A stretch of DNA of 64,000 nt from Acidimicrobiales bacterium (lineage in GTDB: Bacteria > Actinomycetota > Acidimicrobiia > Acidimicrobiales > Aldehydirespiratoraceae), in contig JAWPML010000001.1 in NCBI GenBank assembly GCA_033344915.1, forward strand, positions 1,670,369-1,734,368, in the 5' to 3' direction. The notes beneath the pieces were generated by a model, which was not told the DNA's origin, made no database searches, and worked only from the letters and a program-made list of their open reading frames with translations. Each line of letters starts with the position of its first letter. Position 1 is the stretch's first letter. Shown in pieces: positions 7,001 to 38,795 of the stretch. The position numbers and the translations under genes are program-made.

Positions 7001-7035
7001 TCGCGTGCGGACACGGATCTCAGCCGACCTCCATC

Positions 7036-7602
7036 TCAGAGGTGGGCCACCTCGTTGAAGCTGTGGAGCGCCGGCGTCGATCCTCGTGACGCGATGCGCG
7101 AGATCGAGGCCTGCTGCACGAAACACCGCCATTGCGTCTCGATGCCCACGCCGAGGCTCCAGGCGACGGCCGCCTTGATGGGCGACACGTGGCTCACCAC
7201 CACGATGTCGCGGTCGGCGGATTCGGCGAGGAGGCCGTCGAGCGCCGCGAAGACCCGAGCGGCGAGCTCGTCGAGGCTCTCACCGCCGGGCGGACGCCAG
7301 CCGGTGTCCGCCCGCCACGAACGCCAGGTCTCCGCCGACACGTCGGCCACCGGCGTGCCTTCGAGGTCGCCGTAGTCGAGCTCGATGACGCGTTCGTCGA
7401 TCTCGACCGGCGGACCGATCGCCGCCGCCGTCTCCCGGCAGCGGGCCAGCGGGCTGGAGATCACCCGGTCCGCGCCGGCGAGCGCCCGACCGATCGCGGC
7501 GGCCTGGCGGCGCCCGACCTCGTCGAGGGACGGGTCGCGCCGACCGAGGAGCTCGCCGGAGGCGTTGGCGGCGGTCCGGCCGTGACGGGCGATGATCAGC
7601 AC
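7036..7602 (-). CDS. histidine phosphatase family protein
   Basis: The 188-residue protein begins MLIIARHGRTAANASGELLG. RHG at residues 6-8 is the phosphohistidine motif of the phosphoglycerate-mutase-like superfamily; later IELDYGDLEG and VSHVSPIKAAV supply the acid/base region and second His. The zinc-ribbon gene two positions upstream on the same strand is the partner commonly seen next to RNase H/CobC-type phosphatases in Actinobacteria. That makes a nucleotide or alpha-ribazole phosphate substrate possible but unproven. Confidence 0.85.
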   Translation of the reverse strand: MLIIARHGRTAANASGELLGRRDPSLDEVGRRQAAAIGRALAGADRVISSPLARCRETAAAIGPPVEIDERVIELDYGDLEGTPVADVSAETWRSWRADTGWRPPGGESLDELAARVFAALDGLLAESADRDIVVVSHVSPIKAAVAWSLGVGIETQWRCFVQQASISRIASRGSTPALHSFNEVAHL

Positions 7603-7626
7603 ACTGTCTCCAAACGAATCGGCTCC

Positions 7627-8115
7627 CTAGGCGAGATGGGTACGGGGCAGGCGGCCCGTGCGCACGAGCTGGGTGCGATGGTCGGGCCGGGTGAGCTCGA
7701 AGCGTCGCACGAGCCAGACGAGCGCGCCGATGCCGAGGAGTTCGAGCACCACCAGCACCGCCGGGGCGCGGTCGAACTCGGGCAGCGGCGCCTCGGCGAG
7801 ACCGTCGAGTCCTTGCGCCGGCCACCAGAACAGCTGCGAGCGCGTCCAGGTGCCGGCGGCGACGAGGAAGACGAAGGTGCCGATCGGGATACCGAGCAGT
7901 CGTCGGCGCAGCACCCGACGTCCGACGGTGGCCGCCATCACGAGCGTCATCAGCGCGACCGACCCGAGCAGCGTGTGCAGGATCAGCGGTCGTCCGGTCA
8001 GCGCTTCGACCAGCGGGAGCACACCGCCGAGGGCGACGAACCGATAGTCGATCGCGGGGCTGTCGAACACGAACAGGACCGCCAGGACCGCAGCGGCGAC
8101 GAAGAAGAAGAACAC
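7627..8115 (-). CDS. integral membrane protein, unknown function
   Basis: The gene has a GTG start and 162 residues with about four hydrophobic helices (residues 1-18, 25-43, 45-65 and 75-95, and possibly 120-137). An Arg-rich tail ends it. It is encoded between the zinc-ribbon protein and the histidine phosphatase with 18-24 base gaps, so probably in one operon. No family motif is recognised. Confidence 0.6.
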   Translation of the reverse strand: MFFFFVAAAVLAVLFVFDSPAIDYRFVALGGVLPLVEALTGRPLILHTLLGSVALMTLVMAATVGRRVLRRRLLGIPIGTFVFLVAAGTWTRSQLFWWPAQGLDGLAEAPLPEFDRAPAVLVVLELLGIGALVWLVRRFELTRPDHRTQLVRTGRLPRTHLA

Positions 8116-8133
8116 GGCGCGGCTCCGGCCCCG

Positions 8134-8841
8134 TCAGGTGAGGACGATCCGACCGCACTCGTTGCAGTTCAGGGTGCTCCCGGCCGGCTCGTGCTTCATG
8201 CGGTCCAGTTCCATCGCCGGCATGGTCGACGGACAGCCGACGCAGTTCCCGCCGTCGAAGCGCACGACCGTGGCGACACCCATGCCGGGGCGAAGCCGTT
8301 CGTACTGCGCCAGATCCTCGGGGGACACGACCGCCTCCGCCGCCGCCCGCTCGGAGGCGACCCGCGCCAGCTCACCGTCGATCTCGGCCTCGGCTGCCGC
8401 GATCTCGGCCTCGGTGGTCGTGATCCGGGCCCGGATCTCCTCGAGTTCCGCCTCGCGGTCGGCCAGGCGCGTCGCCAGGGCCTCGCCCTCCTCCATCGCC
8501 TCGAGTGCCCGGTCCTCGATGTCGGCCTGGCGGGCCCGGAGCCCCTTGATCTCCTCCTGGAGGGCCTCCAGGTCCTTGACGCCCACGTCGCCGCCGTAGA
8601 GCCGGGCGTCGTCCTCGTCCGCCTTGTCGGAGAAGACCTGCGCTTCGTCCTCCAGCCGCTTCTGCCGCGTACTCACCTCGACACGACTCACCCCGATCGC
8701 CTCGATCTCGACCTGCACCTTCGCCTGCGCCTCCTGCGCCTCGACGAGGGCGGTCCGGGCCGGGAGGGTTTCACGGCGGTGGCGAAGCTGCTCGGCCTCC
8801 GTGTCGAGGTGCTGGATGTCGAGAAGGGCGTGGTCGGTCAT
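8134..8841 (-). CDS. coiled-coil C4-type zinc ribbon protein (DUF164/CT398-like)
   Basis: Residues 10-185 are almost pure heptad-rich coiled coil (Leu/Glu/Arg/Ala). The C-terminus has CVGCPSTMPAMEL and NCNECGRIVL, two CxxC knuckles that form a zinc ribbon. This architecture and length (235 residues) match the widespread C4-type zinc-ribbon family, which is often encoded beside NIF3 and RNase H/phosphatase genes; here a phosphatase lies two genes downstream. The molecular role is unknown; nucleic-acid or flagellar-chaperone-like roles have been suggested for relatives. Confidence 0.85.
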   Translation of the reverse strand: MTDHALLDIQHLDTEAEQLRHRRETLPARTALVEAQEAQAKVQVEIEAIGVSRVEVSTRQKRLEDEAQVFSDKADEDDARLYGGDVGVKDLEALQEEIKGLRARQADIEDRALEAMEEGEALATRLADREAELEEIRARITTTEAEIAAAEAEIDGELARVASERAAAEAVVSPEDLAQYERLRPGMGVATVVRFDGGNCVGCPSTMPAMELDRMKHEPAGSTLNCNECGRIVLT

Positions 8842-8859
8842 CGGTTGGTGTGCGCTCGC

Positions 8860-11160
8860 TCAGGGTTCGGTGGTGGTCGTCGTCGGCGGATCCGTGGTGG
8901 TGGTCGTCGGCGGCTCGGTCGTGGTCGTGGTGGTGGTCGTCGTCGGCGGATCCGAAGTGGTGGTGTCGGGAACGGTGGTGGTCGTCGTGGTCGTCGTCGT
9001 CGTGGTGGTCGGCGGGATGCAGGCGTCGATCTTGCCGTCTTCGTCGGTGTCGACCGGTTCGAGCAGGCCCGGACACAAACCGATCGCCGGGTCGTACTCG
9101 AAGTCTGGATCCTCGCAGAAATCGACGATGCCGTCCTCGTCCTCGTCCACCTCGGCGTCTTCGTCGCCACACAGACTGTCGAGGAGATCGTTGTAGCGGT
9201 CCTCCTCCTGGTCGGTACGGATCCGCCGGCCCGATCGCGTCGGTGCCGGATCGTCGAAGTCGATCCGATCGAGATCGGCGTGCATGAACTCCATGTACGC
9301 CTGCCAGATCGCGGCGGGAGCGAAACCGCCGGTGACGTTACGCCGACCCAGCTCGGGGATCGACACGCCCCGCATCTCCTCGATCGGGTCGGTCGGGTCG
9401 CCCATCCACACCGCGGTGGACAGGTACGGCGTGTAGCCGACGAACCAGGCGTTGAGGAACTCCTGGCCGGTGCCCGTCTTGCCGGCTGCCGGTTGGTCGG
9501 TGAGCCGGGCCCGGGTGCCGGTGCCACCCACGACATTGGCCTCGAGCACCGACGTCACGAGACGGGCGGACTGGGTCGAGATCGCCCGCTGGGGCGCCGG
9601 TTCGTTGCTGAAGATCACGTTGCCGGAGCGGTCCTCGACCCGTTCGATGAAGATCGGGTCCACCTGGAGTCCGTCGTTGGCGAACGACGCGTAGGCGACG
9701 GCCATGTCGAGTGGCGTGACGTCGAGCGGGCCGAGGGGCATCGACAGGGGAAGTGACGAGAGGTCAGACGTGATGCCGAGCGCCCGAGCGACGTCGGCGA
9801 CGTTGGAGAGCCCCACGATCTGACCCAACCGGAGATAGGCGCAGTTCGACGACGACGTCGTCTGGCTCCGGATCGATCGCACGGATCCGGTGTTCGGTCC
9901 GTTGAAGTTGTTCGCCGAGTACGGGTCCGGGAAACCGCCGGGGTTGTCGAAATAGCAGGTCGCCGAGCCGTTGATCTGGTCGGCCGGGACCAGGCCCTTC
10001 TCCATGGCGGCGGCCAGCACGAAGGACTTGAACGAGCTGCCGGTGGGTCGCCCCTTCTGGGTCGCGATGTTGAACTCGCCGAATCCCTCGACCTCGAATC
10101 CGGGGCCGCCGATCAACGCGCGGACCCGACCGGTGCCGGGCTCCACCGACGCCAGCGCACCGACGAAGCCGCGTGGGTCGTCGGTGGGAGTGAAGCGATC
10201 GACGGCGGCGCGGGCCGCGGCCTGCGCCGCCGGGTCGTACGTCGTGTAGATGCGCAGCCCGCCGCCGAACAACGCCTCGGCCCGTTCCTCCTCGGTCACC
10301 CCGAGTCGAGGGTCGTCGAGAAGCTGGCGCCGCACCTCCTCGATGAAGTAATTCGTCGGCTCCCAACCGGCCGGCACGACACGGGTCGTCGGCACGGGGA
10401 CGGCGCGGTACTCGGTGGCCTCCTCCTCGGTGATGAAGCCGGCCGCGACCATCCGGCCGAGGGCGACATCACGACGGTCCTGGGCATCGAGCGGGTTGAG
10501 CGTGGGGTCATACGTCGACGGGTTGGCGATGAGTCCGGCCAACATTGCCGATTGGGGCACATCGAGCTTGTCGGGGGTCGTGCCGAAGTAGATCTCGGCC
10601 GCGGCGCGGATCCCGTAGGCACCACCGCCGAAGTAGACGGTGTTGAGGTAGGCCTCGAGGATCTCGTCCTTGTCGAGCTGGCGCTCGAGGCGCCACGCCA
10701 ACGCCGCCTCCGGGATCTTCCGATCGATGTCGATCGCGTTGCCCACGACGCCGTTCTTGATCAGCTGCTGGGTGATCGTCGAGCCACCCTCCTCGATACG
10801 TCCGGCACTGACGTTGCGGACCAGGGCCCGCAGGATGGCGGCCGCATCGATGCCGTTGTGCTCGTAGAACCCCTCGTCCTCCACGGCGATGATCGCGTCG
10901 ATCACGGCCTGGCTCACGTCTTCGAGCTCCACGAGCTCGCGGTTCTCGACGTCGTAGAGCTTGTCGAACTCGTCACCGTTGGCGTCGTAGACGATCGAAC
11001 GGAGCGCCAACTCGTTGAGGTTGATCTCGGCGACGGTCGATTCGTTGGCCGCGTAGATCTCCCCGATCCGGGGTCCGAGCGCGGCAAGGGTGAAGGCCAC
11101 CACGATTCCGCCGCCGACGAGTACCGTCGCCAGCCGGACCAGTCCGACGATCCCACGCAC
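8860..11160 (-). CDS. class A penicillin-binding protein (PBP1A-type) with Ca-binding-like, Thr-rich tail
   Basis: This is a bifunctional peptidoglycan synthase of 766 residues. An N-terminal anchor helix (about 5-28) is followed by a GT51 glycosyltransferase domain with EDEGFYEHNG (catalytic E94) and QQLIKN. The transpeptidase domain has SSFK (S375-K378), SxN at 437-439 and KTGT from K561. After the catalytic core the tail changes character: acidic DEDEDG and DTDEDG loops with four Cys (about 664-714), resembling thrombospondin-3 or EF-type calcium loops. It ends in about 50 Thr/Pro-rich residues. Such Thr-rich tails occur in actinobacterial PBPs, but the acidic Cys-bearing insert is unusual. 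It is monocistronic or leads into the zinc-ribbon operon, 18 bases downstream. Confidence 0.95.
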   Translation of the reverse strand: MRGIVGLVRLATVLVGGGIVVAFTLAALGPRIGEIYAANESTVAEINLNELALRSIVYDANGDEFDKLYDVENRELVELEDVSQAVIDAIIAVEDEGFYEHNGIDAAAILRALVRNVSAGRIEEGGSTITQQLIKNGVVGNAIDIDRKIPEAALAWRLERQLDKDEILEAYLNTVYFGGGAYGIRAAAEIYFGTTPDKLDVPQSAMLAGLIANPSTYDPTLNPLDAQDRRDVALGRMVAAGFITEEEATEYRAVPVPTTRVVPAGWEPTNYFIEEVRRQLLDDPRLGVTEEERAEALFGGGLRIYTTYDPAAQAAARAAVDRFTPTDDPRGFVGALASVEPGTGRVRALIGGPGFEVEGFGEFNIATQKGRPTGSSFKSFVLAAAMEKGLVPADQINGSATCYFDNPGGFPDPYSANNFNGPNTGSVRSIRSQTTSSSNCAYLRLGQIVGLSNVADVARALGITSDLSSLPLSMPLGPLDVTPLDMAVAYASFANDGLQVDPIFIERVEDRSGNVIFSNEPAPQRAISTQSARLVTSVLEANVVGGTGTRARLTDQPAAGKTGTGQEFLNAWFVGYTPYLSTAVWMGDPTDPIEEMRGVSIPELGRRNVTGGFAPAAIWQAYMEFMHADLDRIDFDDPAPTRSGRRIRTDQEEDRYNDLLDSLCGDEDAEVDEDEDGIVDFCEDPDFEYDPAIGLCPGLLEPVDTDEDGKIDACIPPTTTTTTTTTTTTVPDTTTSDPPTTTTTTTTTEPPTTTTTDPPTTTTTEP

Positions 11161-12195: not shown

Positions 12196-12942
12196 ATGGT
12201 CGTGCGTGCCGGAGTTCGAATCAGTACCGCGCTCGTCGCCATTGCCCTGTTCGCCACGGCCTGCGGTGGGGGCGATTCCGACGCCGAAGCCGGCGGGCAG
12301 GGCGTGCTCGACGACTTCGTGATCCAGGGCGACGAATCGCTCGACCCCGATGCGATCACGACGACGACCGAGCCGCCGGCCGAAGGCGGCGGTGGCGCGT
12401 CGGAGACCGACGACAGCGGAGACGAGGGCGACCAGCAGTTCGACGAGACGGAGGACACCATCCCGGACGGCGAGGAGGAGACGCCCGAGGGCGAGTTCTT
12501 CGATTCGGTCGGCGTGTTCATGTCCTGCCTCGACTCCGAGGGCTACGGCTTCATCGGCATACCCAATGGCGGCGACGTCAGCGAGCCCGTCAACGATCCC
12601 GGCTACACGTCCGCCCTGAGCACCTGTGCGGCCCAGTCCCAGATCGTGTCGAAGATGGAGGCGGCGCAGGACACCAGCCGGTTCAGCGCCGAGGAGATCG
12701 AGGAGCGCAATCGGGGCTTCGTTGCATTCGTCGACTGCCTTCGCGGTCGCGGGTGGATCATCCCCGAGCTGACCCCGGACGAGAACGGCTCCCTGCAGCC
12801 GCCCTACATCGACATGGCGAGGCTGTGGGAAGGACCGGACGGCAGCGGTCTCATCGACGGAGAAGTGAACGACGACTTCGCGAACTGCGGAGCGACCCCC
12901 GAGCAGATTCGTGGGGACGAAGAGGGAGAGAACGACGAATGA
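12196..12942 (+). CDS. secreted lipoprotein, paralogue 1 of exporter operon
   Basis: The ATG at 12196 follows a GGGGGAG ribosome-binding site. A signal peptide ends in a lipobox (ALFATACGGG), followed by an acidic Thr/Gly/Glu linker. The folded part (about residues 105-245) has paired Cys in MSCLDSEGYGFIGIPNGG, STCAAQ, FVDCLRGRGW and FANCG. It shares long blocks with the next gene (DDFVIQGDE, GGGGASETDD, PVNDPGY), so the two are a tandem duplication. It is co-transcribed with the MacAB-type exporter downstream and is probably an extracytoplasmic accessory or client. The family is not recognised. Confidence 0.75.
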   Translation: MVVRAGVRISTALVAIALFATACGGGDSDAEAGGQGVLDDFVIQGDESLDPDAITTTTEPPAEGGGGASETDDSGDEGDQQFDETEDTIPDGEEETPEGEFFDSVGVFMSCLDSEGYGFIGIPNGGDVSEPVNDPGYTSALSTCAAQSQIVSKMEAAQDTSRFSAEEIEERNRGFVAFVDCLRGRGWIIPELTPDENGSLQPPYIDMARLWEGPDGSGLIDGEVNDDFANCGATPEQIRGDEEGENDE

Positions 12943-13655
12943 ATGTAGGGCTCACGAGAATCGCAACGATCGTCGTGTCGATCGCCCTCCTCGGGGCCGC
13001 CTGCGGTGGCGGATCCGACGACGCGGCCGGCGACGAGGATCCGCTCGACGACTTCGTCATCCAGGGCGACGAGACACTCGACGCCGACGCCATCACGACG
13101 ACGACGACAGCACCGGCCGAAGGCGGCGGTGGCGCGTCGGAGACCGACGACGGCGGCGGCGACACCACCTTCGACACCACGACCGACACCGTCCCGACCG
13201 ACGGCGACGAGGACGAGTTCGGCGTCGGCGGCCTCTTCGCGGCACTCGGATCGTTCACCTCGTGCCTCGAGGTCGAGGGCTACGCGTTCATCGGCCGGCC
13301 GAATCCGGACCTCGAGCCGACCGACCCGGTCAACGATCCGGGCTACGGCGAGGCACTCGGCACCTGCGCGGCGACGAGCAACATCGGTCAGGCGTTCTCC
13401 GATTTCCAGAACGCGTCGGAGAACCTGTCCACCGACCAGATCGAGACCCGCAACCGCACCCTTGTCTTCTGGGTCGACTGCATGGAGGGCCGCGGCTGGG
13501 AGATCGGCGAGCCGGCCACCGATGCCAACGGGCTCCAGCAGCCCAACGACCTCACCCCACCGGAGGGCGAGAGCATCTTCGGCAGCGATGACCTCGCCGA
13601 GTGCAGTGTGATCGCCCAGCGGGAGTACGAGGCCGCGGGCGAGGCGGATTCGTGA
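12939..13655 (+). CDS. secreted lipoprotein, paralogue 2 of exporter operon
   Basis: The ATG overlaps the stop of paralogue 1 by four bases (ATGA). The lipobox is ALLGAACGGG. As in its neighbour, a DDFVIQGDE block and a GGGGASETDD linker lead to a Cys-containing domain (TSCLEVEGYAFIGRPNPD, GTCAA, WVDCMEGRGWEIG, LAECS). The Cys spacing is conserved between the two, which suggests two disulphides. The last codon overlaps the GTG of the fusion protein (GTGA). The strict coupling of four genes argues that the lipoproteins work with the transporter. Confidence 0.75.
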   Translation: MNVGLTRIATIVVSIALLGAACGGGSDDAAGDEDPLDDFVIQGDETLDADAITTTTTAPAEGGGGASETDDGGGDTTFDTTTDTVPTDGDEDEFGVGGLFAALGSFTSCLEVEGYAFIGRPNPDLEPTDPVNDPGYGEALGTCAATSNIGQAFSDFQNASENLSTDQIETRNRTLVFWVDCMEGRGWEIGEPATDANGLQQPNDLTPPEGESIFGSDDLAECSVIAQREYEAAGEADS

Positions 13656-15853
13656 CCCTGAGCCGCAAGCAGATCCTCGGCGTCGCCGCAGTCTTCATCC
13701 TGTTCGCCGGCATCTTCGTGGCCTGGCAGGTCACGGGTGACGATGCGAGTGAGGAGACGCAGGATCCGCCGTTGGTCAACCGGGTCACCCGCCGCACGCT
13801 GCGCGACGAGCTGACCATCAGCGGCGAGCTCCGCCGCGACGAGCTCTCCACCATCAACTCCCCCTTCGACGGCCGCGTGAGCCAGCTCTCGGTGGAGGAC
13901 GGCGACACCATCACCGCCGGCGACGTGCTGCTCGCTCTCGACGGTCGACCCGCGGTGGCCGTCAACGGCGACTTCTCGTTCTACCGTCAGCTCGACGTCG
14001 GCACCGACGGCCCCGACGTGCTCCAGCTCGAACGCATCCTCTTCGAGTCCGGCTACGACCCGGGCGCCGTCGACACCCTGTTCACCGAGGCGACCCGGTC
14101 GGCGCTGCGCCAGTGGCAGATCGCCTACGGCTACGGCGGCGCGACCCCGGAGCCGGAGGAGACCATCGTCGTGACGCTCGCCGACGGCAACGGCTACACG
14201 ATCGCCGACAAGGACACGACCGCCGTCATCATCGGTCCCTCCGTGCCGGGCCAGACGACCGCCGACCAGCCCACCCTCGTGCCGACGCTCGGCGCCGGTC
14301 TGGTCCCCTTCCAGGAGCCCGTCGTTCCCCGCATCGGCATGGACGTCGCCACCGCGACCGTCACCGAGGGCGACACCCTTCTCATCGTGTTGAACGCGGA
14401 TCCCGCGCCGACGGCCGACACCGAGATCGAAGTCGAGTTCGCGAGCACGGCCACCGGCGGCAACCAGGAGGACATCGACGATCCGGACACCGACGTCGAC
14501 TATGTCGACGAGCCGCTGGAGGATCTGCCGTTCATCTGGCCGGCCGGCGAGACGACGGTGACGCTCGAGCTCGAGACGCTGGCGGATGATCTCGACGAGG
14601 ACGACGAGGAGTGGTCCATCACGCTGATCGCCGAGCAGGTCGTCGTCGGTGCGAACTACGGCATCGGCCCGATCAAGTCCACGACGGTCGACATCCTCGA
14701 CGCCAACACGCCGAAGATCCCCACGCTCGAACTGTCGGTCGACGAGGACGACACCGAGGTCGACGAGGGTGGCGCGGCGACGTTCACCATCGAGTCCGAC
14801 ATCGAGCTCGACAACGCCCTGGAGGTCCGGTACGAGGTCATCGGCGGCACCGCGGTGGAGGACGACGACTACGACGAGCAGGACGAGCGCGCCACGTTCG
14901 ACTTCGGCGCCAACGACACCATCGACACCTTCGGCATCGGTACGACCCAGGACGACGACATCGAGCCGGACGAGACGATCACGGTGCGCCTTCTACCCGC
15001 CGACGATCCCGACGAGCAGTACCTCCTCGGCCCCAACATCACGGGCACCGTGACCATCGAGGACGACGACGAGCCCGAGCTGACGATGGTCACCCGGGAG
15101 CAGACCATCCCCGAGGGGTCGCTGATCGAGCTGATCGTGGAGGCCGACCAGGCCCCGAACGAGGACATCTCCGTCGACTACGACATCCAGGGTTCCGCCA
15201 CCATGGGCGTGGACTACGAGGTGATGACCGGCCAGTTCACGTTCCCCCGGGGACGAACCCGGGTCGCGCTCACGATCCAGACGATCGACGACGACGTGAT
15301 CTTCGTGCCGTCCGACATGATCGTCGCCGACTGGCCGGCCCGTATCGGCACCGTCTTCGTCGACGAGGGCGAGACCGTCCAGCTCGGCCGCGAGCTGCTC
15401 ACCCTCACCGAGCCGGACTTCACGATCCGTCTCTTCGCCAATCCGACGGACCGCTCCGAGCTCGCCGTCGGACAGGTCGTGCAGGTCGAGATCGAGGCCG
15501 GCGACCAGGACTCGAGCGGCATCATCACGCAGCTCGACGACGCCGCGACCATCTCCGACAGCGGCGGCGAATCCTACGAGGGCGTGGTGGAGGTGGACGA
15601 CGACCTCGCCGCGGTCGACGGCGCCAACGTGCGCATCGAGGTGATCCTGGAGGAACGGGTCGACGCCATCACGGTACCGATCGCCGCCATCAGCCTGGAC
15701 GGCACCGGCAACGAGGTCGTGTCGGTCGTCGACGAGGAGACCCGGGCGATCACGCTCACCCAGATCGTGACCGGTCTCCAGGAGGGAAGCTTCACGGAAG
15801 TCGTGTCGGGTCTCGAGGGTGACGAGCTCGTCATCGTCAACGTCGACAACTGA
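13652..15853 (+). CDS. membrane-fusion protein with peptidoglycan-binding domain and Calx-beta-like repeats
   Basis: The GTG at 13652 overlaps the previous stop (GTGA). The product is 733 residues. A TM/signal anchor (about 8-27) and a HlyD-like strand pair (DELTISGELRRDELSTI, then GRVSQLSVEDGDTITAGDVL) come first. A PG_binding_1 domain lies near residues 115-160 (GTDGPDVLQLERILFESGYD). Three acidic beta repeats of Calx-beta type follow at about 229-303, 360-446 and 476-550, each with an EGD/EGG/EGS start and a DDD end. The C-terminal 180 residues return to the adaptor fold (RIGTVFVDEGETVQLGRELL and AISLDGTGNEVVSVVD). Adaptors with a peptidoglycan-binding domain are known in Gram-positives; the Calx-beta insertion between adaptor halves is unusual. 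Confidence 0.8.
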   Translation: MTLSRKQILGVAAVFILFAGIFVAWQVTGDDASEETQDPPLVNRVTRRTLRDELTISGELRRDELSTINSPFDGRVSQLSVEDGDTITAGDVLLALDGRPAVAVNGDFSFYRQLDVGTDGPDVLQLERILFESGYDPGAVDTLFTEATRSALRQWQIAYGYGGATPEPEETIVVTLADGNGYTIADKDTTAVIIGPSVPGQTTADQPTLVPTLGAGLVPFQEPVVPRIGMDVATATVTEGDTLLIVLNADPAPTADTEIEVEFASTATGGNQEDIDDPDTDVDYVDEPLEDLPFIWPAGETTVTLELETLADDLDEDDEEWSITLIAEQVVVGANYGIGPIKSTTVDILDANTPKIPTLELSVDEDDTEVDEGGAATFTIESDIELDNALEVRYEVIGGTAVEDDDYDEQDERATFDFGANDTIDTFGIGTTQDDDIEPDETITVRLLPADDPDEQYLLGPNITGTVTIEDDDEPELTMVTREQTIPEGSLIELIVEADQAPNEDISVDYDIQGSATMGVDYEVMTGQFTFPRGRTRVALTIQTIDDDVIFVPSDMIVADWPARIGTVFVDEGETVQLGRELLTLTEPDFTIRLFANPTDRSELAVGQVVQVEIEAGDQDSSGIITQLDDAATISDSGGESYEGVVEVDDDLAAVDGANVRIEVILEERVDAITVPIAAISLDGTGNEVVSVVDEETRAITLTQIVTGLQEGSFTEVVSGLEGDELVIVNVDN

Positions 15854-28373: not shown

Positions 28374-29210
28374 GTGTCCGCCGTGCACGCCCACCCCTGG
28401 AACACCGCGTTTTCGTGGCGGCGACCCTCCGTGTCGCCTCGGCGACTCTGCGAGGCCGAACTCGACCAGTTCCACGACCAGGGCTGGCTGGTGGTGGAGG
28501 ACCTCATCGATGCGGCCACGGTCGCCGCGGTGCGCGCCGAGCTGGACGAGATCGAGGCGGACGTCGATGCCCTGCTGAAGGGTCTCCCCGACGAGCGGAT
28601 GTTCATCGCCGAGGCCGGCGCGATCACGTTCGCCCCCCACGCCGTGAACCAGTCCGCCGCCGCTCGGGCCGTCAGCCGGCATCCGGCCATCGCCGACCTC
28701 TGCCACGACCTCGTCGGCCCCGACGTGCGGCTCTACTGGGACCAGGTCGTCTACAAGAAGCCCGAGAAACCGCGGGCGTTCCCCTGGCACCAGGACAACG
28801 GCTACACCTACGTCGAGCCCCAGCAGTACCTGACCGTGTGGTTGTCGCTCACCGACGCGCCCGTGGAAGCCGGCTGTCCGTGGGTCGTCCCCGGAGTCCA
28901 CCTCGGTGGCACCCTGGCCCACGAGTACGTCGACCCCCTCGGGTACCGATGCTTCGCCGAGCACCCGGACGCGGTCGCCGCGCCGGTCCGGGCCGGCGGC
29001 GCCGTGGTGTTCTCGTCGCTCACGCCCCACATGACGGGACCGAACACCACCGGCGACATCCGCAAGACCTACATCCTCCAGTACGCCCCGGACGGCGCCG
29101 AGGTGCTCCAGGGCGAGGCCCCCGGGCCGCCGACCGGACGCACACCGCAGAACGACGCCGATCGCCAGTACCTCGTGGTCTCGGGCGGCGAGCGAGTCGA
29201 GAACGCATGA
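28374..29210 (+). CDS. phytanoyl-CoA dioxygenase (PhyH) family Fe(II)/2-oxoglutarate oxygenase
   Basis: The gene has a GTG start; a second GTG at 28383 is possible. The 278-residue protein has a double-stranded beta-helix. PWHQDNGYTYVEPQQYLTVW provides the HxD iron motif, and SLTPHMTGPNTTGDIRKTYI the distal His and the Arg that holds 2-oxoglutarate. Length and motifs match bacterial PhyH enzymes that hydroxylate small amines, lipids or phosphonates. Its TGA overlaps the permease ATG (ATGA), tying the enzyme to the transporter operon; the imported compound may be its substrate, which is inference. Confidence 0.9.
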   Translation: MSAVHAHPWNTAFSWRRPSVSPRRLCEAELDQFHDQGWLVVEDLIDAATVAAVRAELDEIEADVDALLKGLPDERMFIAEAGAITFAPHAVNQSAAARAVSRHPAIADLCHDLVGPDVRLYWDQVVYKKPEKPRAFPWHQDNGYTYVEPQQYLTVWLSLTDAPVEAGCPWVVPGVHLGGTLAHEYVDPLGYRCFAEHPDAVAAPVRAGGAVVFSSLTPHMTGPNTTGDIRKTYILQYAPDGAEVLQGEAPGPPTGRTPQNDADRQYLVVSGGERVENA

Positions 29211-31276
29211 CCGACCGGATGAACGTCACGCCGCCGGCCTGGACGGACCGGCTGAACTGGCTCGCGTGGCCGGTGGTGATCCTGCTCGTGCAGTTGATCC
29301 TGTTCCCGGCTCCCGTCGGGGTGATCCTCGACGGCCTCATCCTCGGCCTGATCACGTCGCTCGTCGCGCTCGGTATGTGGCTCATCTACCGGGCGAACCG
29401 CGTGATCAACTTCGCCACCGCGGAGTTCGGCTTCCTCCCCGGCGTGGTCGCCATGCTGCTCATCGTCGAGACCGGCTGGGCGTGGTGGCAGGGCTTCACG
29501 GTGGGCATCCTCCTGGCGGCCTGCCTCGGACTCTTCACGGAGTTCGTCATCATCCGACGGTTCTTCGATGCGCCCCGGTTGGTCCTCACGGTCGCAACGA
29601 TCGGCGTCGCGAACCTCTTCGGCGTGATCGCCATCTTCATCCCGGCATGGTGGGACACGCGGCTGGAGAACCAGCGTCTCGAACCACCGGTCGACTGGGT
29701 GCTGGACGTCGGCGCCGTGCGCTTCAACGGCAACGACCTGATGGTCGTCATCATCGCCCCGATCGCGATCATCGCGGTGGGGGTCCTGCTGCGGTTCACC
29801 CGCCTCGGCGTCGCGATCCGCGCCGCGTCCGAGCTCCCCCGCCGCGCCATGCTGCTCGGCATTCCCGTGAAGGGCCTCCAGTCGGTCGTGTGGACGATCT
29901 TCGGCGTCCTCGCGTTCCTTGCCCTGTTCCTGCGGATCGGCGTGTTCGGCACGCCGGTCGCCGGTGACCTCGGCCTGATCTTCCTGCTCCGGGGGCTCGC
30001 CGCGCTCACGATCGGCCGCTTCGTGCACCTGCCGACGATCATGGCGTCGTCGATGGCGATCGGCATCCTCCAACAGGGTGTGGCCTGGAACACCGACGGC
30101 CAGGAGGCCCAGCAGGTCATCGGCGCGGTGATCGGCATCATCGTCGTGCTGTCACTCCTGCTGCGGCGGGACCGCGGCCTGCGTTCGGACCGGGACGGCG
30201 CGTCGTGGCAGAACGTCGGCGAATCACGCCCGGTCCACGCCGCGTTCCGTCGACTCCCGCTCGTTCGGGTCACCCGGGTCGTCGCCGTCCTCGGTGCGGC
30301 GTACTTCCTGCTGTGGTGGGTCCCCTACGGAAACGTCATCAAGATCCAGGACGTGCACCGCATCGCGATCATCTTCATCTTCACGATGCTCTTTCTCTCG
30401 CTCGGAGTGCTCACCGGCTGGGCCGGCCAGCTCTCGCTCGGGCAACTGGGCTTCTTCGCCGTCGGCGGCGTCGTCGCCGGGAAACTCTCGATCGACTACA
30501 ACGTCGACTACACGCTCGCCCTCCTCGCCGGGGGCATCGCCGGCGCCGCATCGTCGCTGATCGTCGGTGTGCCGGCGATCCGGTTGCGGGGCGCCTATCT
30601 CGCGGTGGCGACGCTCGTGTTCTCCATCGCGATCTCGGGCTACTTCCTGAACCCGCAGTTCTTCGACTGGGTCCTGCGTCCGACCGACCGCATCCCCCGC
30701 AACCCGGTCCTCGGCATCGTGGACTGGAACAGCACCCGGGCGTCCTACTTCGTCGCCCTCATCGTCACCGCCGTCGTGATCATCGGCGTCGAGGCGATCC
30801 GCCGTTCCCGGACCGGGCGCATCCTCGTCGCCCTGCGCGACAACGAGGACGGCACCGAGGCCTACGGCATCAGCGCGGTACGCGCCCGACTGACGGCGTT
30901 CGCCATCTCCGGCTTCATCGCCGCCGTCGCCGGTGGCGTCTCGGTGCACCACAACCAGTTCTTCGAGCCGGACAACCCGGGCTTCAACCTCGGCATCTTC
31001 ATCGGCGCCGTACTCGGCGGCCTCGGCACCGCCGCCGGCGCCGCGCTCGGCGCCCTCTACTTCAACGGCACGTTCTTCTGGTTCCGCGAGGACTGGGTGC
31101 TGTGGACGAGTGCGGCTGGGATCCTCATCATCCTGTGGCTTGCTCCGGCCGGGCTGCACGGCCTCTGGCAGACGATGCGCGACATGTTCCTGCGCTGGTA
31201 CGGGGCCCGGCGGGGGCTGAGTGACGCCGACCTGGCCGAGGATCTGCTCGAGCCGGCCGAGGAGGTCGCACCATGA
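29207..31276 (+). CDS. fused LivH-LivM branched-chain-type ABC permease
   Basis: The ATG overlaps the PhyH stop. The 689-residue protein contains two permeases in one chain. Residues of about 20-320 are LivH-like (MWLIYRANRVINFATAEFGF, then RAASELPRRAMLLGIPVKGL). Residues of about 360-660 are LivM-like (LTGWAGQLSLGQLGFFAVGG, then RTGRILVALRDNEDGTEAYG). The joint is a hydrophilic stretch near residues 325-350. LivH and LivM are separate subunits in textbook systems; the fusion fixes their 1:1 pairing. The TGA overlaps the next ATG. It would pass a branched-chain amino acid, amide or similar polar substrate. Confidence 0.92.
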   Translation: MTDRMNVTPPAWTDRLNWLAWPVVILLVQLILFPAPVGVILDGLILGLITSLVALGMWLIYRANRVINFATAEFGFLPGVVAMLLIVETGWAWWQGFTVGILLAACLGLFTEFVIIRRFFDAPRLVLTVATIGVANLFGVIAIFIPAWWDTRLENQRLEPPVDWVLDVGAVRFNGNDLMVVIIAPIAIIAVGVLLRFTRLGVAIRAASELPRRAMLLGIPVKGLQSVVWTIFGVLAFLALFLRIGVFGTPVAGDLGLIFLLRGLAALTIGRFVHLPTIMASSMAIGILQQGVAWNTDGQEAQQVIGAVIGIIVVLSLLLRRDRGLRSDRDGASWQNVGESRPVHAAFRRLPLVRVTRVVAVLGAAYFLLWWVPYGNVIKIQDVHRIAIIFIFTMLFLSLGVLTGWAGQLSLGQLGFFAVGGVVAGKLSIDYNVDYTLALLAGGIAGAASSLIVGVPAIRLRGAYLAVATLVFSIAISGYFLNPQFFDWVLRPTDRIPRNPVLGIVDWNSTRASYFVALIVTAVVIIGVEAIRRSRTGRILVALRDNEDGTEAYGISAVRARLTAFAISGFIAAVAGGVSVHHNQFFEPDNPGFNLGIFIGAVLGGLGTAAGAALGALYFNGTFFWFREDWVLWTSAAGILIILWLAPAGLHGLWQTMRDMFLRWYGARRGLSDADLAEDLLEPAEEVAP

Positions 31277-34185
31277 CCGCGGTTGACGAAACCGTCGGCG
31301 AGAAGCCCCACTTCATGCGGCGCATCGTCGGCACCGGGCCGATCCTGCCGATCGGCGTGCTGTTCGGACTCAACGCGGTGGACGAACTCGACCGCTCGGC
31401 GGCGGCGATCCTGGCGCCGGAGATCCGCGACGAGTTCGGAATCTCCACCGGCTCGTACTTCCTCATCATCGCGATCGTTCTCTTCTTCGTGCTGATCGCC
31501 CAGCCGCTGGTCGCCGGGTTCGCGGACCGGACGAACCGGGTCCGCCTCGCCCTCATCGGCGCGACGATGTGGGCCGTCTTCAGCTTCTCCACCGGCCTCG
31601 CTGTGGGTCTCGTGATGTTTATCGTCGTGCGGATCGGATCCGGGGTCGGCAAGGCCGTCAACGATCCGACCCACGGCTCGCTCATCGCCGACTGGTACGA
31701 GCCGAACGATCGGCCGAAGGTCTACAGCTTCCACGGCGCGGCGAACGCCGTCGGTCTCGGCATCGGGCCACTGATCGCCGGCATGCTCGCCTACTCGTTC
31801 GGCTGGCGGGCCCCGTTCCTGCTCTACGCCTTCCCGACCCTGATCGTCGTCCTGATCGGGCTGCGCCTCCGGGAACCGATCCGCGGCGCCCTCGAACGAG
31901 CGGCGGCCGGCGGCGACGAGGAGGCGATCAACACGGCGGAGGAGCCGCCGACCTTCGCCGAGGCGTGGCGCATGTGCTGGAAGATCGAAGCGCTACGCCG
32001 TATCTGGTTCGCGACGCCGTTCCTGTCGGCCTCGATCCTCGGGTTCGGCCTCCTCACGACCTTCCTCTACGAGGAGGTCTACGGGCTGGACGAGCGGGCG
32101 CGCGGGGTCATCGCCGCGGCGGGTCAACCGGCGCGGATCCTCGGCCTCGTCATCGGCGGCATCGTCGGCGCCCGGCTCATCAAGCGGGACCCGGGCCTGA
32201 TCCTGCGCTTCCTCGCCCTCGCCTCGTTCATCACCGCGGGACTCTCGCTCGTGTTCGCCCTCGTCCCGAACCTGGCCGTCGCCGTGATCGCCGACATGGG
32301 AATCGGCCTCTGTCTCGCCATCGTCGGGCCGGGCATCATCGCCTCGCTGTCGCTCGCGATCCCGCCGCGGGCGCGCGCCATGGGCTTCTCGATCGGCAAC
32401 CTGTTCGTCATTCCGGGTCTCGTCAATCTGTGGCTCATCGGCGAGGTGGCGGACGCCTGGGGCATCCGCGCCGGCATGGCGATGATGACGCCCATCTTCC
32501 TCATCGGCGGTCTCGTCATCTCCAGTGGCGGCAACGTCATCGGGCGCGACATCGAGGACGTGCGCCACGCCGCGCTCACCCGGTCGCAGGTCTTGTCGGC
32601 TCGTCGCCGCGGCGAGGTCAAGATGCTCTACATCCGGGGGCTCAACGCGGGCTACAACGGGGTGCGCGTGCTCCACGACGTCGACTTCGAGGTCGACGCG
32701 GGAGAGGTCGTCGCCCTGCTCGGCACGAACGGCGCCGGGAAGTCGACCCTGCTCAAGACCATCTCCGGCGTCGTACAGGCCGACTCGGGCGCCATCATGC
32801 TCGACGGGAGGGACACCACCCATCCCCCGCCGAACGAGATCACCGCGCTCGGGATCGTCCAGATCCCGGGTGGCGCCGGCGTGTTCCCCGGACTGACCGT
32901 TCGCGAGAACCTCGAAGCGGCCGGCTGGCTCCAACGCAACGACCCGGCCGCGCTCGCGGCGGCCCATCAGGAAGTCCTCGACGCCTTCCCGGAGCTGGAG
33001 TCCCGGCTCGAGGATCCGGCCGGCGACCTCTCCGGTGGCCAGCAGCAGATGCTCGCCCTCGGGATGACGTTCCTGCTGCGGCCCAAGCTCCTGATGATCG
33101 ACGAGCTGTCCCTCGGGCTCGCACCGATCGTCGTCGAGCGCCTCCTGGAGATGGTCCGGCGGATCGCGGCGACCGGGGTGACGATCATCCTCGTCGAGCA
33201 GTCGGTCAACGTCGCGCTGGAGCTCGCCGACTTCGCCTACTTCATGGAACGGGGCCGGATCCGGTTCCACGGGCGGACCGAGGAGTTGCTCGAGCGCCGT
33301 GACCTGCTGCGCTCCGTGTTCCTCGGCGAGAACGACTTCACGTCGACCGCGCGGATCGCGAAGCCGGCCGCTCCCGTCGGCGATCTCGCCCTGCGGGTCG
33401 AAGGCGTGACCCGCAGTTTCGGTGGCATCCAGGCCGTCTCGGACGTGTCCTTCGAGGTGTACGACAACGAGATCGTCGGGTTCATCGGTCCGAACGGCGC
33501 CGGCAAGACCACCCTCTTCGACGTGATCGGCGGATCGACCCCGGCCGACGCCGGCACCATCGACCTCCGCGGCGTCGCCCTGCATCGTCGCTCGCCGAGC
33601 GCGCGCGCCCGCGCCGGCCTCGGGCGGTCGTTCCAGGACGCACGGCTCTTCCCCGCGCTCACCGTCGAGGAGACGATCGCCGTCTCGCTCGAGCGGTGGA
33701 TCCGGTGGGGCGGTCCCGTCACCGCCGCACTTCATCTCCCGATGGCCTTCGACAGCGAGGCATCGGTCGCGAAGCGGGTCGACGAACTCATCGAGCTGAT
33801 GAGTCTCGAGCGCTACCGCCACAAGCGCATCCGGGAGTTGTCGACGGGCACGAGACGGATCGTCGACATCGCGTGTGTGATCGCCCATCGGCCCACGGTC
33901 ATCCTCCTCGACGAACCGTCGAGCGGGATCGCCCAGCGCGAGGTCGAGGCCCTGGCGCCAGTCCTCGAGCGCCTGCGATCCGAGATGGGCGCCTCGCTGC
34001 TCGTCATCGAACACGACATGAACCTGCTCGCATCGATCGCCGACCGGGTGATCGCGCTGGACCAGGGGGCTGTGATCGCGACGGGCGTGCCCGACGACGT
34101 ACTCAACGACCCGCGGGTGATCGCCGCCTACCTTGGCACGGACGAGGCCGCGATCAGCCGTTCGGGACTGAAACCGGACAACTGA
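31273..34185 (+). CDS. MFS transporter fused to LivF- and LivG-type ABC ATPases
   Basis: This is a single 970-codon frame. Residues of about 20-435 are a complete major-facilitator domain (about 12 TMs) with motif A-like GFADRTNRVRLAL and a central cytosolic loop. Residues 451-690 are a LivF-type ATPase: GTNGAGKST at 484, LSGGQQQ, LLMIDELSLGLAP. Residues of about 703-955 are a LivG-type ATPase: GPNGAGKTT at 739, signature LSTGTRRIV, VILLDEPSSG and a switch His in VIEHD. It lies between the fused permease (ATGA overlap) and the binding protein. An internal ATG at 32623 after GCGAGG could also yield a free ATPase pair. An MFS secondary carrier joined to both ATPases of an ABC importer is highly unusual. 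The frame shows no break in coding character. Confidence 0.92.
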   Translation: MTAVDETVGEKPHFMRRIVGTGPILPIGVLFGLNAVDELDRSAAAILAPEIRDEFGISTGSYFLIIAIVLFFVLIAQPLVAGFADRTNRVRLALIGATMWAVFSFSTGLAVGLVMFIVVRIGSGVGKAVNDPTHGSLIADWYEPNDRPKVYSFHGAANAVGLGIGPLIAGMLAYSFGWRAPFLLYAFPTLIVVLIGLRLREPIRGALERAAAGGDEEAINTAEEPPTFAEAWRMCWKIEALRRIWFATPFLSASILGFGLLTTFLYEEVYGLDERARGVIAAAGQPARILGLVIGGIVGARLIKRDPGLILRFLALASFITAGLSLVFALVPNLAVAVIADMGIGLCLAIVGPGIIASLSLAIPPRARAMGFSIGNLFVIPGLVNLWLIGEVADAWGIRAGMAMMTPIFLIGGLVISSGGNVIGRDIEDVRHAALTRSQVLSARRRGEVKMLYIRGLNAGYNGVRVLHDVDFEVDAGEVVALLGTNGAGKSTLLKTISGVVQADSGAIMLDGRDTTHPPPNEITALGIVQIPGGAGVFPGLTVRENLEAAGWLQRNDPAALAAAHQEVLDAFPELESRLEDPAGDLSGGQQQMLALGMTFLLRPKLLMIDELSLGLAPIVVERLLEMVRRIAATGVTIILVEQSVNVALELADFAYFMERGRIRFHGRTEELLERRDLLRSVFLGENDFTSTARIAKPAAPVGDLALRVEGVTRSFGGIQAVSDVSFEVYDNEIVGFIGPNGAGKTTLFDVIGGSTPADAGTIDLRGVALHRRSPSARARAGLGRSFQDARLFPALTVEETIAVSLERWIRWGGPVTAALHLPMAFDSEASVAKRVDELIELMSLERYRHKRIRELSTGTRRIVDIACVIAHRPTVILLDEPSSGIAQREVEALAPVLERLRSEMGASLLVIEHDMNLLASIADRVIALDQGAVIATGVPDDVLNDPRVIAAYLGTDEAAISRSGLKPDN

Positions 34186-34232: not shown

Positions 34233-36059
34233 ATGCAACCAGCATCGGCAGAAGGGGGCGGGGGCGACCTCGGCCGTCAACTGAAACGCTACGGACCGCT
34301 CGCACTGATCGCGATCGTCGTGATCGTCGTGATCGTCGTCGTGGCGTCGAGCGGCGGGGACGACGACCCCACCGCGGACGACAACGGCGACGCCGAGATC
34401 AGCGATCCGAACGATCCGGCCGACCCCGACGACCCGAGCGACCCCGGCGACCCGGCGGATCCGGCCGATCCCGCCGGACCCCGGCTCGACGTGAACGGTC
34501 GCGAACTCAACGACGGCGTGGTCCCGCTCAGCTGGGCCCGCGAGCAGGGCGTGGAGGACGACTACGAATGGGGCGACCGTTGCGACCTCGAGCGGGGCAG
34601 CATCGCCGTCCCCGACGTGTTCGCGGTCGAGTGCGTCGCCGTGTTCGACGGTGACAACGGCGGGGCCACCGCCCAGGGCGTCACCGAGGACACGATCGTC
34701 ATCGCGTGGTACCAGGCCCAGGAGCAGGACCCGATCCTCAACTACATCACGTCCGCGATCATCAACGACGACACGAACGCCCAGGAGGAGGCCACCGTCC
34801 GGGGCCTGATGGAGTACTTCGAGACGTACTACGAGACGTACGGTCGCTCCGTGGAGCTGGTCGTCGTTCCGGCCAGTGGCAACGTCGCGGACGTGGGTGC
34901 CGCGGTGGCGGACGCCAAGTTCATCGTCGAACAGGTCAAGCCCTTCATGGTGTGGGGTGGACCGAACCTCACGAACGCGTTCGCCCAGGAGCTCCATGCC
35001 AACGGCATTCCGTGCTTCGGCTGCACCGTCGGCGTGAACTTCGACTACTACGAGGAGCGCCCGGGCCTGGCCTATGTGGTCGGCAAGGGCGGCGAGCAGC
35101 TCGACCTGCTCGTCGCGGAGTATGTCGCCAAGCGACTCGCCGGTGACCCGGCGATCCACGCGGGCGATGAGTCGATGCACGACACCGAGCGGGTCTTCGG
35201 GCGGGTGTGGACCACCACGGGCGAGGGCTCCGAGCTCGCCAACGAGCGCTTCGAGGCGAACCTGCGCGATCTCGGCGTGGAGATCACCGAGTCGCAGAGC
35301 TATGTGCTCGACCCAGCGTCGCTGCAGGAATCGGTGACCACCATCATCACCAAGCTCAAGGAGGCCGGCGTCACCTCGGTGATCGTGAGCACGGACCCGA
35401 TCGGTCCGCGCGATCTCACCTTCGAGGCGACGGCGCAGAACTACTTCCCGGAGTGGATCGTGACGGGTTCGGTGCTCGTGGACACCACCGCGTTCGCCCG
35501 CTCGTACGACCAGACCCAGTGGCAGAACGCGTTCGGCATCTCGAACCTGTCGGCCCGGGTCGCCCAGAGCGCCGGAGGGATCTTCTCGATCTACGAGTGG
35601 TTCCACGGCGAGCGGCCGCCGGCCGACGACACGATCGGTGTCCTCTCGCCCAACCCGCAGACGTTCTACTCGTTCCTCCAGTCCACCGGTCCCGAGCTCA
35701 CCGTGGAGAACTTCAACCACGCGGTGTTCGCGGGGGTCCCCACGGCGCGGGCGGTGACGTCGCCGTCGTTGTCCTGGGGAACCGAGAACATCTGGCCGGC
35801 CGACCTCGAGCCCGACTATCGGGGCGTCGACGACATCAGCGAGATCTGGTGGGACCTCGACCAGGAGGGCGTCAACGAGATCGAGGACGAGGGCGTCGGC
35901 ATGTGGCGGTGGGTCGACGGTGGCCTGCGGTTCCAGCCCGGCGAGATCCTCGAGGGGCCACCGAAGGCCTTCGTGATGGAGGGCTCGGTGGACATCTACG
36001 AGCAGCGCCCCGCCGATGAGCAGTTTCCGGGCACCTACGAGCCGCTGCCCGCCGGCTGA
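34233..36059 (+). CDS. membrane-anchored type-1 periplasmic binding protein (LivK/AmiC-like)
   Basis: An AGGGGGAC ribosome-binding site precedes the ATG. The 608-residue protein has an uncleaved N-terminal TM helix (about 20-42), then an acidic Asp-Pro linker (about 45-85) and a type-1 binding-protein fold. GVTEDTIVIAWYQAQEQDP and VVPASGNVADVGAAVADAKF are characteristic early strands; LKEAGVTSVIVSTDPIG and FGISNLSARVAQSAGGIFSI follow in the second lobe. It lacks a lipobox, so anchoring by a TM helix replaces lipidation. It is the last gene of the operon and the probable solute receptor for the fused LivHM/LivFG importer. Its 3' end overlaps nagA antisense by 25 bases. Confidence 0.88.
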   Translation: MQPASAEGGGGDLGRQLKRYGPLALIAIVVIVVIVVVASSGGDDDPTADDNGDAEISDPNDPADPDDPSDPGDPADPADPAGPRLDVNGRELNDGVVPLSWAREQGVEDDYEWGDRCDLERGSIAVPDVFAVECVAVFDGDNGGATAQGVTEDTIVIAWYQAQEQDPILNYITSAIINDDTNAQEEATVRGLMEYFETYYETYGRSVELVVVPASGNVADVGAAVADAKFIVEQVKPFMVWGGPNLTNAFAQELHANGIPCFGCTVGVNFDYYEERPGLAYVVGKGGEQLDLLVAEYVAKRLAGDPAIHAGDESMHDTERVFGRVWTTTGEGSELANERFEANLRDLGVEITESQSYVLDPASLQESVTTIITKLKEAGVTSVIVSTDPIGPRDLTFEATAQNYFPEWIVTGSVLVDTTAFARSYDQTQWQNAFGISNLSARVAQSAGGIFSIYEWFHGERPPADDTIGVLSPNPQTFYSFLQSTGPELTVENFNHAVFAGVPTARAVTSPSLSWGTENIWPADLEPDYRGVDDISEIWWDLDQEGVNEIEDEGVGMWRWVDGGLRFQPGEILEGPPKAFVMEGSVDIYEQRPADEQFPGTYEPLPAG

Positions 36060-37122: not shown

Positions 37123-38673
37123 CTACTCCCGGTCGCGCAGCTCGCGGCGCAGGATCTTGCCGGACGCCGACTTGGGAATGGCGTCGATCTCCTCGAGCAG
37201 ACGGATCTGCTTGTAGCTGACCAGGTGTTCGCCCACGAACTCCTGCACTTCTTCGAGGGTCACGGAGGCACCGGGAGCGACCTGGATGAACGCCTTCGGC
37301 AGTTCCCCGGCGGCTTCGTCGGGCACGCCGATGACGGCCACGTCGACGATCGCGGGATGGGTGATCAGCAGCGCTTCGAGCTCTGCGGGCGGCACCTGGA
37401 AGCCGTTGTACTTGATGAGTTCCTTGATGCGATCGACGATCGAATAGTGGCCGGCCTCGTCGATGACGGCGACGTCACCGGTGTGGAGCCAGCCGTCGGC
37501 GTCGATGGTGTCGGCGGTCGCCTGCTCGTTGTTGAGATACCCCTTCATCACCATCGGACCGCGGACCCAGAGCTCGCCGCGCTCCCCGACCGGCTGATCC
37601 TCGCCGGTCTCGGGATCGACGACGCGGCATTCGACATTCGAGATCGCGACACCGCTCGTGCCGGGGCGGCCGTGACCCTCGACGGTGGAATGCGAGACGG
37701 GGCTCAACTCGGTCATGCCGTAGCCCTGCACGACCTCCACGCCGATGCGGGCGCCCGCCTCGTTCGCGAGCTCGGCACCGAGCGGCGCGGCGCCGGAGAA
37801 CACCTGCTTCAGCGACGACAGGTCGTAGGAATCGACCTGGGGCGACTTGGCGAGACCGAGCACCATCGGCGGGACCGCGAAGAAGCGCGTGATCTTCTCG
37901 CTCTGCACGAGCGCCAGCGCGGCGTCGAGATCGAAGCGGGGCATCGTGACGACCTTCACCCCGTTGGCGATCAGCCCGTTCATCAGCACCTGCATGCCGT
38001 AGATGTGGAAGAACGGCAGCGCGGCCAGCGCCGCCTCGTCGCCCTCGTAGGTGAGGACGTGTTCCATCTGGCAGATGTTGGCCACGAGGTTGGTGTGGGT
38101 GAGCATGACCCCCTTCGGCAGCCCGGTCGTGCCGGAGGAGTACGGCAGGACGACGACGTGATCGTGCACATCGACGGCCACCTGCTCGATCGGATCGCCG
38201 AACAGCGACGCCATCGGCGTCGCGCCGTCGGCCTCGCCCATGACGAACAGCTCCGTGACGTCGGTGCCCTCCATCGCCTCCGCCGCGACCGGTAGGAACA
38301 TCGGCACCGTCAGGAGCAGGGTCGCTCCCGCGTCCTGGAGCTGGAAGCGAACCTCGCCGGCACCGTAGGTGGGGTTGATCGTGGTGATGGTGCCCCCGGC
38401 GACCGCGACCGCGTGGAACACGATCGCGTACTCCGGCACGTTGGGCGCCATGATCCCGAGCGTGGAGCCCGGGCCGAAGCCGCGGGCCTGAAGGCCGCCC
38501 GCCATGCGATGCACGGCGTCGCTGAGCTCGGCGTAGGTGTAGCTCGACGACGCGCCATCGGTGATCGCCACTGCGTCGGGCGTCTCGGCCGCCTTCTGCA
38601 GTACGAACGAACTGACGGCGACCTCGGGGATGTCGACCTCGGGGAGCGGACTCTTGTGGATGATCACGTCCAT
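37123..38673 (-). CDS. 4-coumarate/acyl-CoA ligase family AMP-forming synthetase
   Basis: The ATG at 38673, with an AGAGAGGT ribosome-binding site, gives 516 residues. The adenylation motifs are intact: LPYSSGTTGLPKGVMLTHTN (P-loop), QGYGMTELSPVSH, WLHTGDVAVIDEAGHYSIVD, DRIKELIKYNGFQVPPAELE and the catalytic Lys in IPKSASGKILRRELRD. MAPNVPEYAIVFHAVAVAGG resembles 4CL-type enzymes. It activates an aryl or medium-chain acid as an acyl-AMP and then a CoA thioester; which acid is not readable. Neighbours do not define a pathway. Confidence 0.92.
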   Translation of the reverse strand: MDVIIHKSPLPEVDIPEVAVSSFVLQKAAETPDAVAITDGASSSYTYAELSDAVHRMAGGLQARGFGPGSTLGIMAPNVPEYAIVFHAVAVAGGTITTINPTYGAGEVRFQLQDAGATLLLTVPMFLPVAAEAMEGTDVTELFVMGEADGATPMASLFGDPIEQVAVDVHDHVVVLPYSSGTTGLPKGVMLTHTNLVANICQMEHVLTYEGDEAALAALPFFHIYGMQVLMNGLIANGVKVVTMPRFDLDAALALVQSEKITRFFAVPPMVLGLAKSPQVDSYDLSSLKQVFSGAAPLGAELANEAGARIGVEVVQGYGMTELSPVSHSTVEGHGRPGTSGVAISNVECRVVDPETGEDQPVGERGELWVRGPMVMKGYLNNEQATADTIDADGWLHTGDVAVIDEAGHYSIVDRIKELIKYNGFQVPPAELEALLITHPAIVDVAVIGVPDEAAGELPKAFIQVAPGASVTLEEVQEFVGEHLVSYKQIRLLEEIDAIPKSASGKILRRELRDRE

Positions 38674-38795
38674 ACCTCTCTTCCAGCGCCGCGCAGCGTA
38701 GCAAACCGGCTGGAGAGGGCTGATCGGACCTTTCTCATGGGTCGAACGACTCATCCGACTTCCCCAACCATGCCGAGGCGCCGTACCGTGAGAAC

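Follow-up and report, generated by a model that had tools for sequence, protein, structure and literature searches.

The 64,000-nucleotide stretch of an Acidimicrobiales genome that was analysed here (the window) holds, on its forward strand, an operon for an ABC importer of the LIV type, one gene of which encodes an unusual three-part chain. The first gene (29150-31276) specifies a fused LivH-LivM permease of ~700 amino acids with two BPD_transp_2 domains (Pfam E 1.3e-47); its true start lies near 29180. The frame as listed, from 28289, runs across the gene for a PhyH-family dioxygenase directly upstream (28374-29210, forward strand; Pfam PhyH E 4.6e-34). The TGA stop codon of the permease gene overlaps the ATG of the second gene (ATGA), which is preceded by a good Shine-Dalgarno sequence, AGGAGG. 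This second gene (31273-34185) encodes a major facilitator superfamily (MFS) domain followed by LivF- and LivG-type ATPases, and 47 nucleotides 3' of its stop begins the gene for a binding protein (34233-36059) with an N-terminal transmembrane (TM) helix at residues 14-38. The fused protein is thus located where the ATPases of an importer are expected, between the permease and the binding protein, as stated in a preliminary description of this DNA. The PhyH gene stands beside LivH-LivM on the same strand in the window and in three relatives (L046, L055 and L116), and the dioxygenase is a possible member of the operon in close relatives only. Downstream of the operon, an AMP-binding acyl-CoA ligase is encoded on the reverse strand (37123-38754). 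No RNA elements were found when these were looked for, and a scan for sigma-70 promoters returned nothing.

The operon resembles the LIV/HAAT importers (LivFGHMK; UrtABCDE), which likewise combine LivH, LivM, LivF and LivG with a type I binding protein in a single operon. Both permease domains are present and adjoin the ATPase gene in relatives too, where the fused LivH-LivM frame is found in nearly all cases, and the LivF- and LivG-type ATPases carry Walker A, Walker B and signature motifs. The binding protein from the window has no Pfam match of its own, but Peripla_BP_6 is detected in 5 of 16 homologues; a sequence comparison of the protein with the PDB gave no match. Its AlphaFold2 model (pLDDT 81.5) is matched by Foldseek to LivJ and to aromatic-acid, urea and fatty-acid binding proteins, so that, as modelled, it is a membrane-anchored protein with the type I periplasmic-binding fold. 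Naming a ligand from this fold was considered and abandoned, as the fold matches too many ligand classes. The operon departs from the LIV/HAAT plan in four respects: the permeases are fused to each other, the ATPases are fused to each other, an MFS domain is placed N-terminal to LivF, and the binding protein is anchored in the membrane.

The MFS, LivF and LivG domains form a single chain of 970 residues that is read from the ATG at 31273 without an internal stop, which bears out the uninterrupted frame reported in the preliminary description. Pfam identifies MFS_1 at residues 32-378 (E 3.8e-41), followed by a pair of ABC_tran domains and a LivG-type tail (BCA_ABC_TP_C, 934-958). In NCBIfam, the first ATPase is matched best by UrtE, the second by UrtD. 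In the AlphaFold2 model of the chain (mean pLDDT 84.5) the MFS domain (31273-32535, residues ~1-421) has 12 TM helices at pLDDT ~90. A helix at residues 423-445, within the segment encoded at 32536-32625, prolongs TM12 into the LivF-type ATPase (32626-33342, residues 452-690); as the number of TM helices is even, the C-terminus of the MFS domain and LivF would both lie in the cytoplasm, as required. In 48 of 54 proteins, TM12 and LivF are 31 residues apart. The segment joining the ATPases (33343-33384) is unordered in the model, with pLDDT below 50 at residues 681-699, and this linker varies from 20 to 101 amino acids among relatives. It leads into the LivG-type ATPase (33385-34182, residues 705-970). 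In the model, the two ATPases match the fused ATPase domains of DppD (8wdb_D, TM-score 0.71 on the target). Like this chain, M. tuberculosis DppD and OppD carry two ATPase domains, but they have no carrier domain and belong to another importer family. The earlier statement that all ATPase motifs are present holds for the Walker motifs and for the LivF signature (Walker A GTNGAGKS, signature LSGGQQ, Walker B LLMIDE in LivF). It needs correcting for the LivF switch, where glutamine (VEQS, Q643) replaces histidine, as it does in the canonical LivF proteins of the same genome, and for the LivG signature, which reads LSTGT instead of LSGGQ beside an intact switch histidine (IEHD).

The fused chain is widely conserved. 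Genomes of the same family carry it whole at 82, 71, 67, 61, 59 and 59% identity, and a scan with one genome per species, from which the best 80 of 186 relatives were kept, recovered mostly Acidimicrobiia together with a few Frankiales-type bins. The order LivH-LivM, MFS-LivF-LivG, binding protein is found in most of the distinct loci; in the Frankia-type branch the operon begins with the binding protein. A sample of the class contained the full-length chain in 29 of 148 genomes, with three more chains cut at contig ends, and in a phylum sample of 149 genomes it was found in 4 genomes that belong to two families beyond this class, with several copies in each. After removal of identical chains, 99 MFS-LivF-LivG proteins, from Actinomycetota, and 27 MFS-LivF proteins remained. 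A search of plasmids gave a single distant match, with 28.6% identity over the MFS domain. The architecture recurs throughout the Acidimicrobiia, so that for this lineage the earlier view that a carrier and an ABC ATPase almost never share a chain does not hold. Two bins labelled Bifidobacterium breve and one labelled Acidobacteria (L073, L086 and L089) contain operons of acidimicrobial type, and these records are probably mislabelled or contaminated. A Frankiaceae bin (L106) encodes MFS-LivF-LivG (5458-8901) and, a few kilobases away, a LivF-LivG chain without MFS (12800-14881).

The same comparison bears on whether the fusion could be an artefact, that is, an assembly error, a frameshift or a chance run-on of two genes. 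Many of the relatives are metagenome bins, and in one locus of the sister architecture described below (L198, 5865-8321, reverse strand) MFS and LivF lie in overlapping but different frames, a case that reflects either a genuine separation or a frameshift introduced by sequencing. Against this explanation, the chain occurs at about 99 distinct loci, some of them in isolates (Ilumatobacter nonamiensis, L049, and IMCC26207, L074), both the sequence and the length of the MFS-LivF join are conserved, and GC3 stays between 0.88 and 0.97 across the gene (60-codon bins, the last ten codons excepted), including both joins, so no frame switch is hidden at either of them. Separate genes, a stop near 32600 and an indel at the join were also looked for: none of the relatives with the MFS-LivF-LivG chain has a stop there, and L198 is the sole exception to an intact join. 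Frameshift and misassembly were consequently set aside, and we regard the chance of an artefact as negligible. The internal ATG at 32623, proposed as a second start, is preceded by GAGG 5 nucleotides upstream, yet among 54 aligned proteins it is unique to the window, 49 having leucine at this position, so it is not a conserved second start.

A second architecture, in which an MFS-LivF chain is followed by a LivH-LivM-LivG chain, is present at two loci in the same genome and is widespread in the family. Other sister systems (L117, L120-L123, L157 and L161) contain LivF-LivG without MFS, so the importer would have no strict need of the MFS domain. In the LivF tree, L117 and L120 are placed next to a chain that has MFS, which suggests that MFS was lost. 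In a tree of MFS domains rooted with free-standing MFS relatives, all sampled fused domains together with two free-standing proteins (L199 and L156) form one clade with SH-aLRT support of 100, and the remaining free-standing relatives fall outside it. Since the sampled fused domains share this single clade, the join between MFS and LivF looks single and ancient, and the simplest reading of the trees is that LivG was joined later, either to LivF or to LivM, with at least one later release of MFS (L156). The free-standing L156 protein (6837-8780), nested among the fused domains and apparently released from its ATPases, is encoded next to genes for an AMP-ligase, Lgt, a thiolase and a short-chain dehydrogenase. 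Fusions of other extents also occur: a 1284-codon frame (L125, 2345-6196) unites LivH, LivM, LivF and LivG, the whole importer core, without MFS, and a genome of the same family (L026, 1-3114) has LivM, LivF and LivG in one chain.

The structures closest to the MFS domain by profile comparison are HnSpns (6e8j, E 3e-31), SPNS1 and DgoT (E 3e-31 to 3e-24), which places it near the Spinster and SLC17-like carriers. Free-standing MFS relatives exist, so the domain descends from a family of ordinary carriers. Motif A occupies residues 82-92 in the loop between TM2 and TM3, where D85, R86 and R89 are retained in 99, 100 and 101 of 101 chains, respectively, so the proposed check of this motif came out in favour of its conservation; together with D140, these residues are near-invariant in 101 fused chains and in a further 32. 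Among the helices, conservation is highest in TM1 and TM4. A conserved charge cluster is formed by D37, E38, D40 and R41 (TM1), R120, K127, D131 and H134 (TM4) and H154 (TM5), and buried conserved charges are largely confined to these three helices, with few in the others. R277 was considered as a fusion-specific residue and discarded, as the free-standing L199 has it too. Relative to a homologue with 96% identity, dN/dS is 0.043 for MFS, 0.045 for LivF and 0.027 for LivG; purifying selection on the MFS domain is as strong as on the ATPases.

The proton switches of HnSpns are E129, which holds R42, and D41, which is paired with R122, while D142 takes part in the charge relay of motif A (PMC9440201). 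The fused domain shares with HnSpns, SPNS1/2 and DgoT the Asp-Arg pair in TM1, the arginine in TM4, and motif A with its partner aspartate. D40, R41 and R120 correspond to D41, R42 and R122 of HnSpns, and D40 and R120 are conserved in 95% and 94% of the MFS-LivF-LivG chains. It differs from these carriers in being covalently tied to an ABC ATPase and in its TM4 proton-switch position, where Lys, Arg or Gln takes the place of Glu: residue 127, equivalent to E129 of HnSpns and E133 of DgoT, is Lys or Arg in 83 of 101 chains (Lys in the window) and acidic in 3. By its residues, the fused MFS domain retains the parts that serve alternating access and has lost the proton switch, and it is not classed with the proton-coupled members of the Spinster group. 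The loss of the TM4 acid was initially taken as a fusion-specific mark of coupling to ATP. This idea was dropped, as some free-standing relatives have Gln at the position (L201-L204), and others have Asp (L191 and L192); because Gln occurs in free-standing proteins, the non-acidic residue is a trait of the wider subfamily and, taken alone, is no sign of coupling to ATP.

To ask which component the MFS domain evolves with, pairwise distances were compared across 43 loci that contain all parts. The MFS domain and the binding protein diverge together (r 0.93; partial r given LivF, LivG, LivH and LivM, 0.80; Mantel p 0.001). Common phylogeny inflates tests of this kind, and the remaining components of each operon serve as internal controls. 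The partial correlation is 0.03 between MFS and LivF, its fusion partner, and only 0.55 between LivH and LivM, which are fused physical partners of like rate. The value for MFS and the binding protein is stable to jackknifing (0.79-0.82), stands at 0.68 by ranks and at 0.72 when the Frankia-type branch is left out, and drops to 0.22 (p 0.044) when ranks are used on the most restricted set, of 29 loci. The signal is stronger in the helices that line the cavity (1, 4, 7 and 10; 0.58) than in the outer helices (3, 6, 9 and 12; 0.27) and is about equal in the periplasmic and cytoplasmic halves, without periplasmic bias. A signal that is weighted towards the cavity and neutral between the halves fits a common substrate specificity better than it fits physical docking, and the fact that MFS tracks the binding protein of its own system likewise points to a common substrate. 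The earlier idea that the fusion couples ATP use to a second substrate finds no support here.

These data weigh against the proposal that the MFS domain serves only for membrane anchoring or assembly and has no role in ligand handling. The occurrence of LivF-LivG chains without MFS in sister lineages can be cited on either side: it would mark the additional membrane domain as optional, and it also disfavours a plain anchoring role. The buried charges in TM1, TM4 and TM5, motif A, a dN/dS equal to that of the ATPases and the cavity-weighted co-divergence all count against an anchor, and LivF is already held by LivH-LivM; we consider this explanation improbable.

We favour, tentatively and at slightly less than even chances, the reading that the MFS domain is a working, proton-uncoupled carrier of the Spinster/SLC17-like type that handles the same substrate as the importer and is tethered 1:1 to its ATPases. 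The LivH-LivM chain and the LivF-LivG pair would constitute a LIV-type importer fed by the membrane-anchored binding protein, and the rigid helix from TM12 to LivF would hold a bona fide 12-TM carrier beside it. This carrier may bind and move the substrate class of the importer as a facilitator or exchanger uncoupled from protons, offering a low-cost or outward path (overflow or exchange) alongside high-affinity, ATP-driven uptake; the parallel route raised in the preliminary description survives in this form as a possibility. Transport by the MFS domain, the common substrate, the stoichiometry of the complex and the direction of flow are what we infer from the comparisons above. Several points tell against the carrier reading. 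The co-divergence comes from Mantel tests, with their phylogenetic inflation, and is weak in the rank analysis of 29 loci, and some sister systems have LivF-LivG and lack MFS. A sensor that binds ligand and does not transport would leave identical conservation, and the position of the coupling glutamate is mostly Lys or Arg; by analogy, both acids of DgoT are needed for active transport, which is lost in the neutral E133 mutant (PMC6532931).

The sensor just mentioned is the most serious competitor of the carrier reading, and the two draw on mostly common evidence. In that case, the MFS domain would be a non-transporting substrate sensor (transceptor) that gates the ATPases through the rigid TM12-LivF helix, in the manner of the regulatory domains on the ATPases of other importers. 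The near-constant helical join, in contrast to the free linker between LivF and LivG, is in keeping with such gating, as are the placement of MFS on LivF in both architectures, the specificity it appears to share with the binding protein and the replacement of the proton switch. UhpC offers a precedent as an MFS-fold receptor for the substrate that it has in common with the transporter UhpT, although its partner is a histidine kinase and it carries no fused ATPase. However, motif A and a switch of the D40:R120 type, both of which serve alternating access, are retained, and free-standing relatives without any ATPase have much of the same charge cluster. In our judgement, a sensor is conceivable but less likely than a carrier.

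It has also to be considered that ATP hydrolysis by LivF-LivG drives the MFS domain itself, giving an ATP-powered MFS fed by a binding protein. The rigid helix to LivF, the missing proton-coupling carboxylate in nearly all fused chains and the co-divergence with the binding protein instead of LivF are compatible with this arrangement. However, a complete LivH-LivM, the normal partner of the ATPases, is present wherever the flanks are readable, and the Gln at position 127 of the free-standing L201-L204 proteins makes the loss of the acid nothing special to the fusion. We know of no MFS protein that uses ATP, and direct powering is thus very improbable. A broader proposition, that the ATP cycle of LivF acts through the rigid TM12-LivF helix to drive or gate an MFS domain that has the same substrate as the binding protein and has surrendered its own proton switch, and so couples two translocation pathways mechanically, seems to us quite improbable as well.

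As to the substrate, an AMP-ligase (acyl-CoA synthetase) gene lies beside 18 of ~83 related loci, about 5-6 of which look independent, in a genome background of ~39 AMP-ligase genes. Together with the kinship of the MFS domain to Spinster proteins, these neighbours give a weak hint of a lipophilic carboxylate.

A search of openly accessible literature for MFS-LivF or MFS-ABC fusions found none described. The conserved chain of MFS and ABC ATPases thus seems undescribed so far, its parts being known and their combination new. Teaching keeps primary, ATP-driven transport apart from secondary transport, as two classes that each have their own proteins. Ilumatobacter, Microthrix and other Acidimicrobiia are common inhabitants of oceans and wastewater, and most of their uptake systems have yet to be characterised. 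A conserved chain that holds components of both classes and is maintained by selection in much of the Acidimicrobiia makes a mechanical linkage between them directly testable, and with it whether an MFS domain can regulate an ABC importer.
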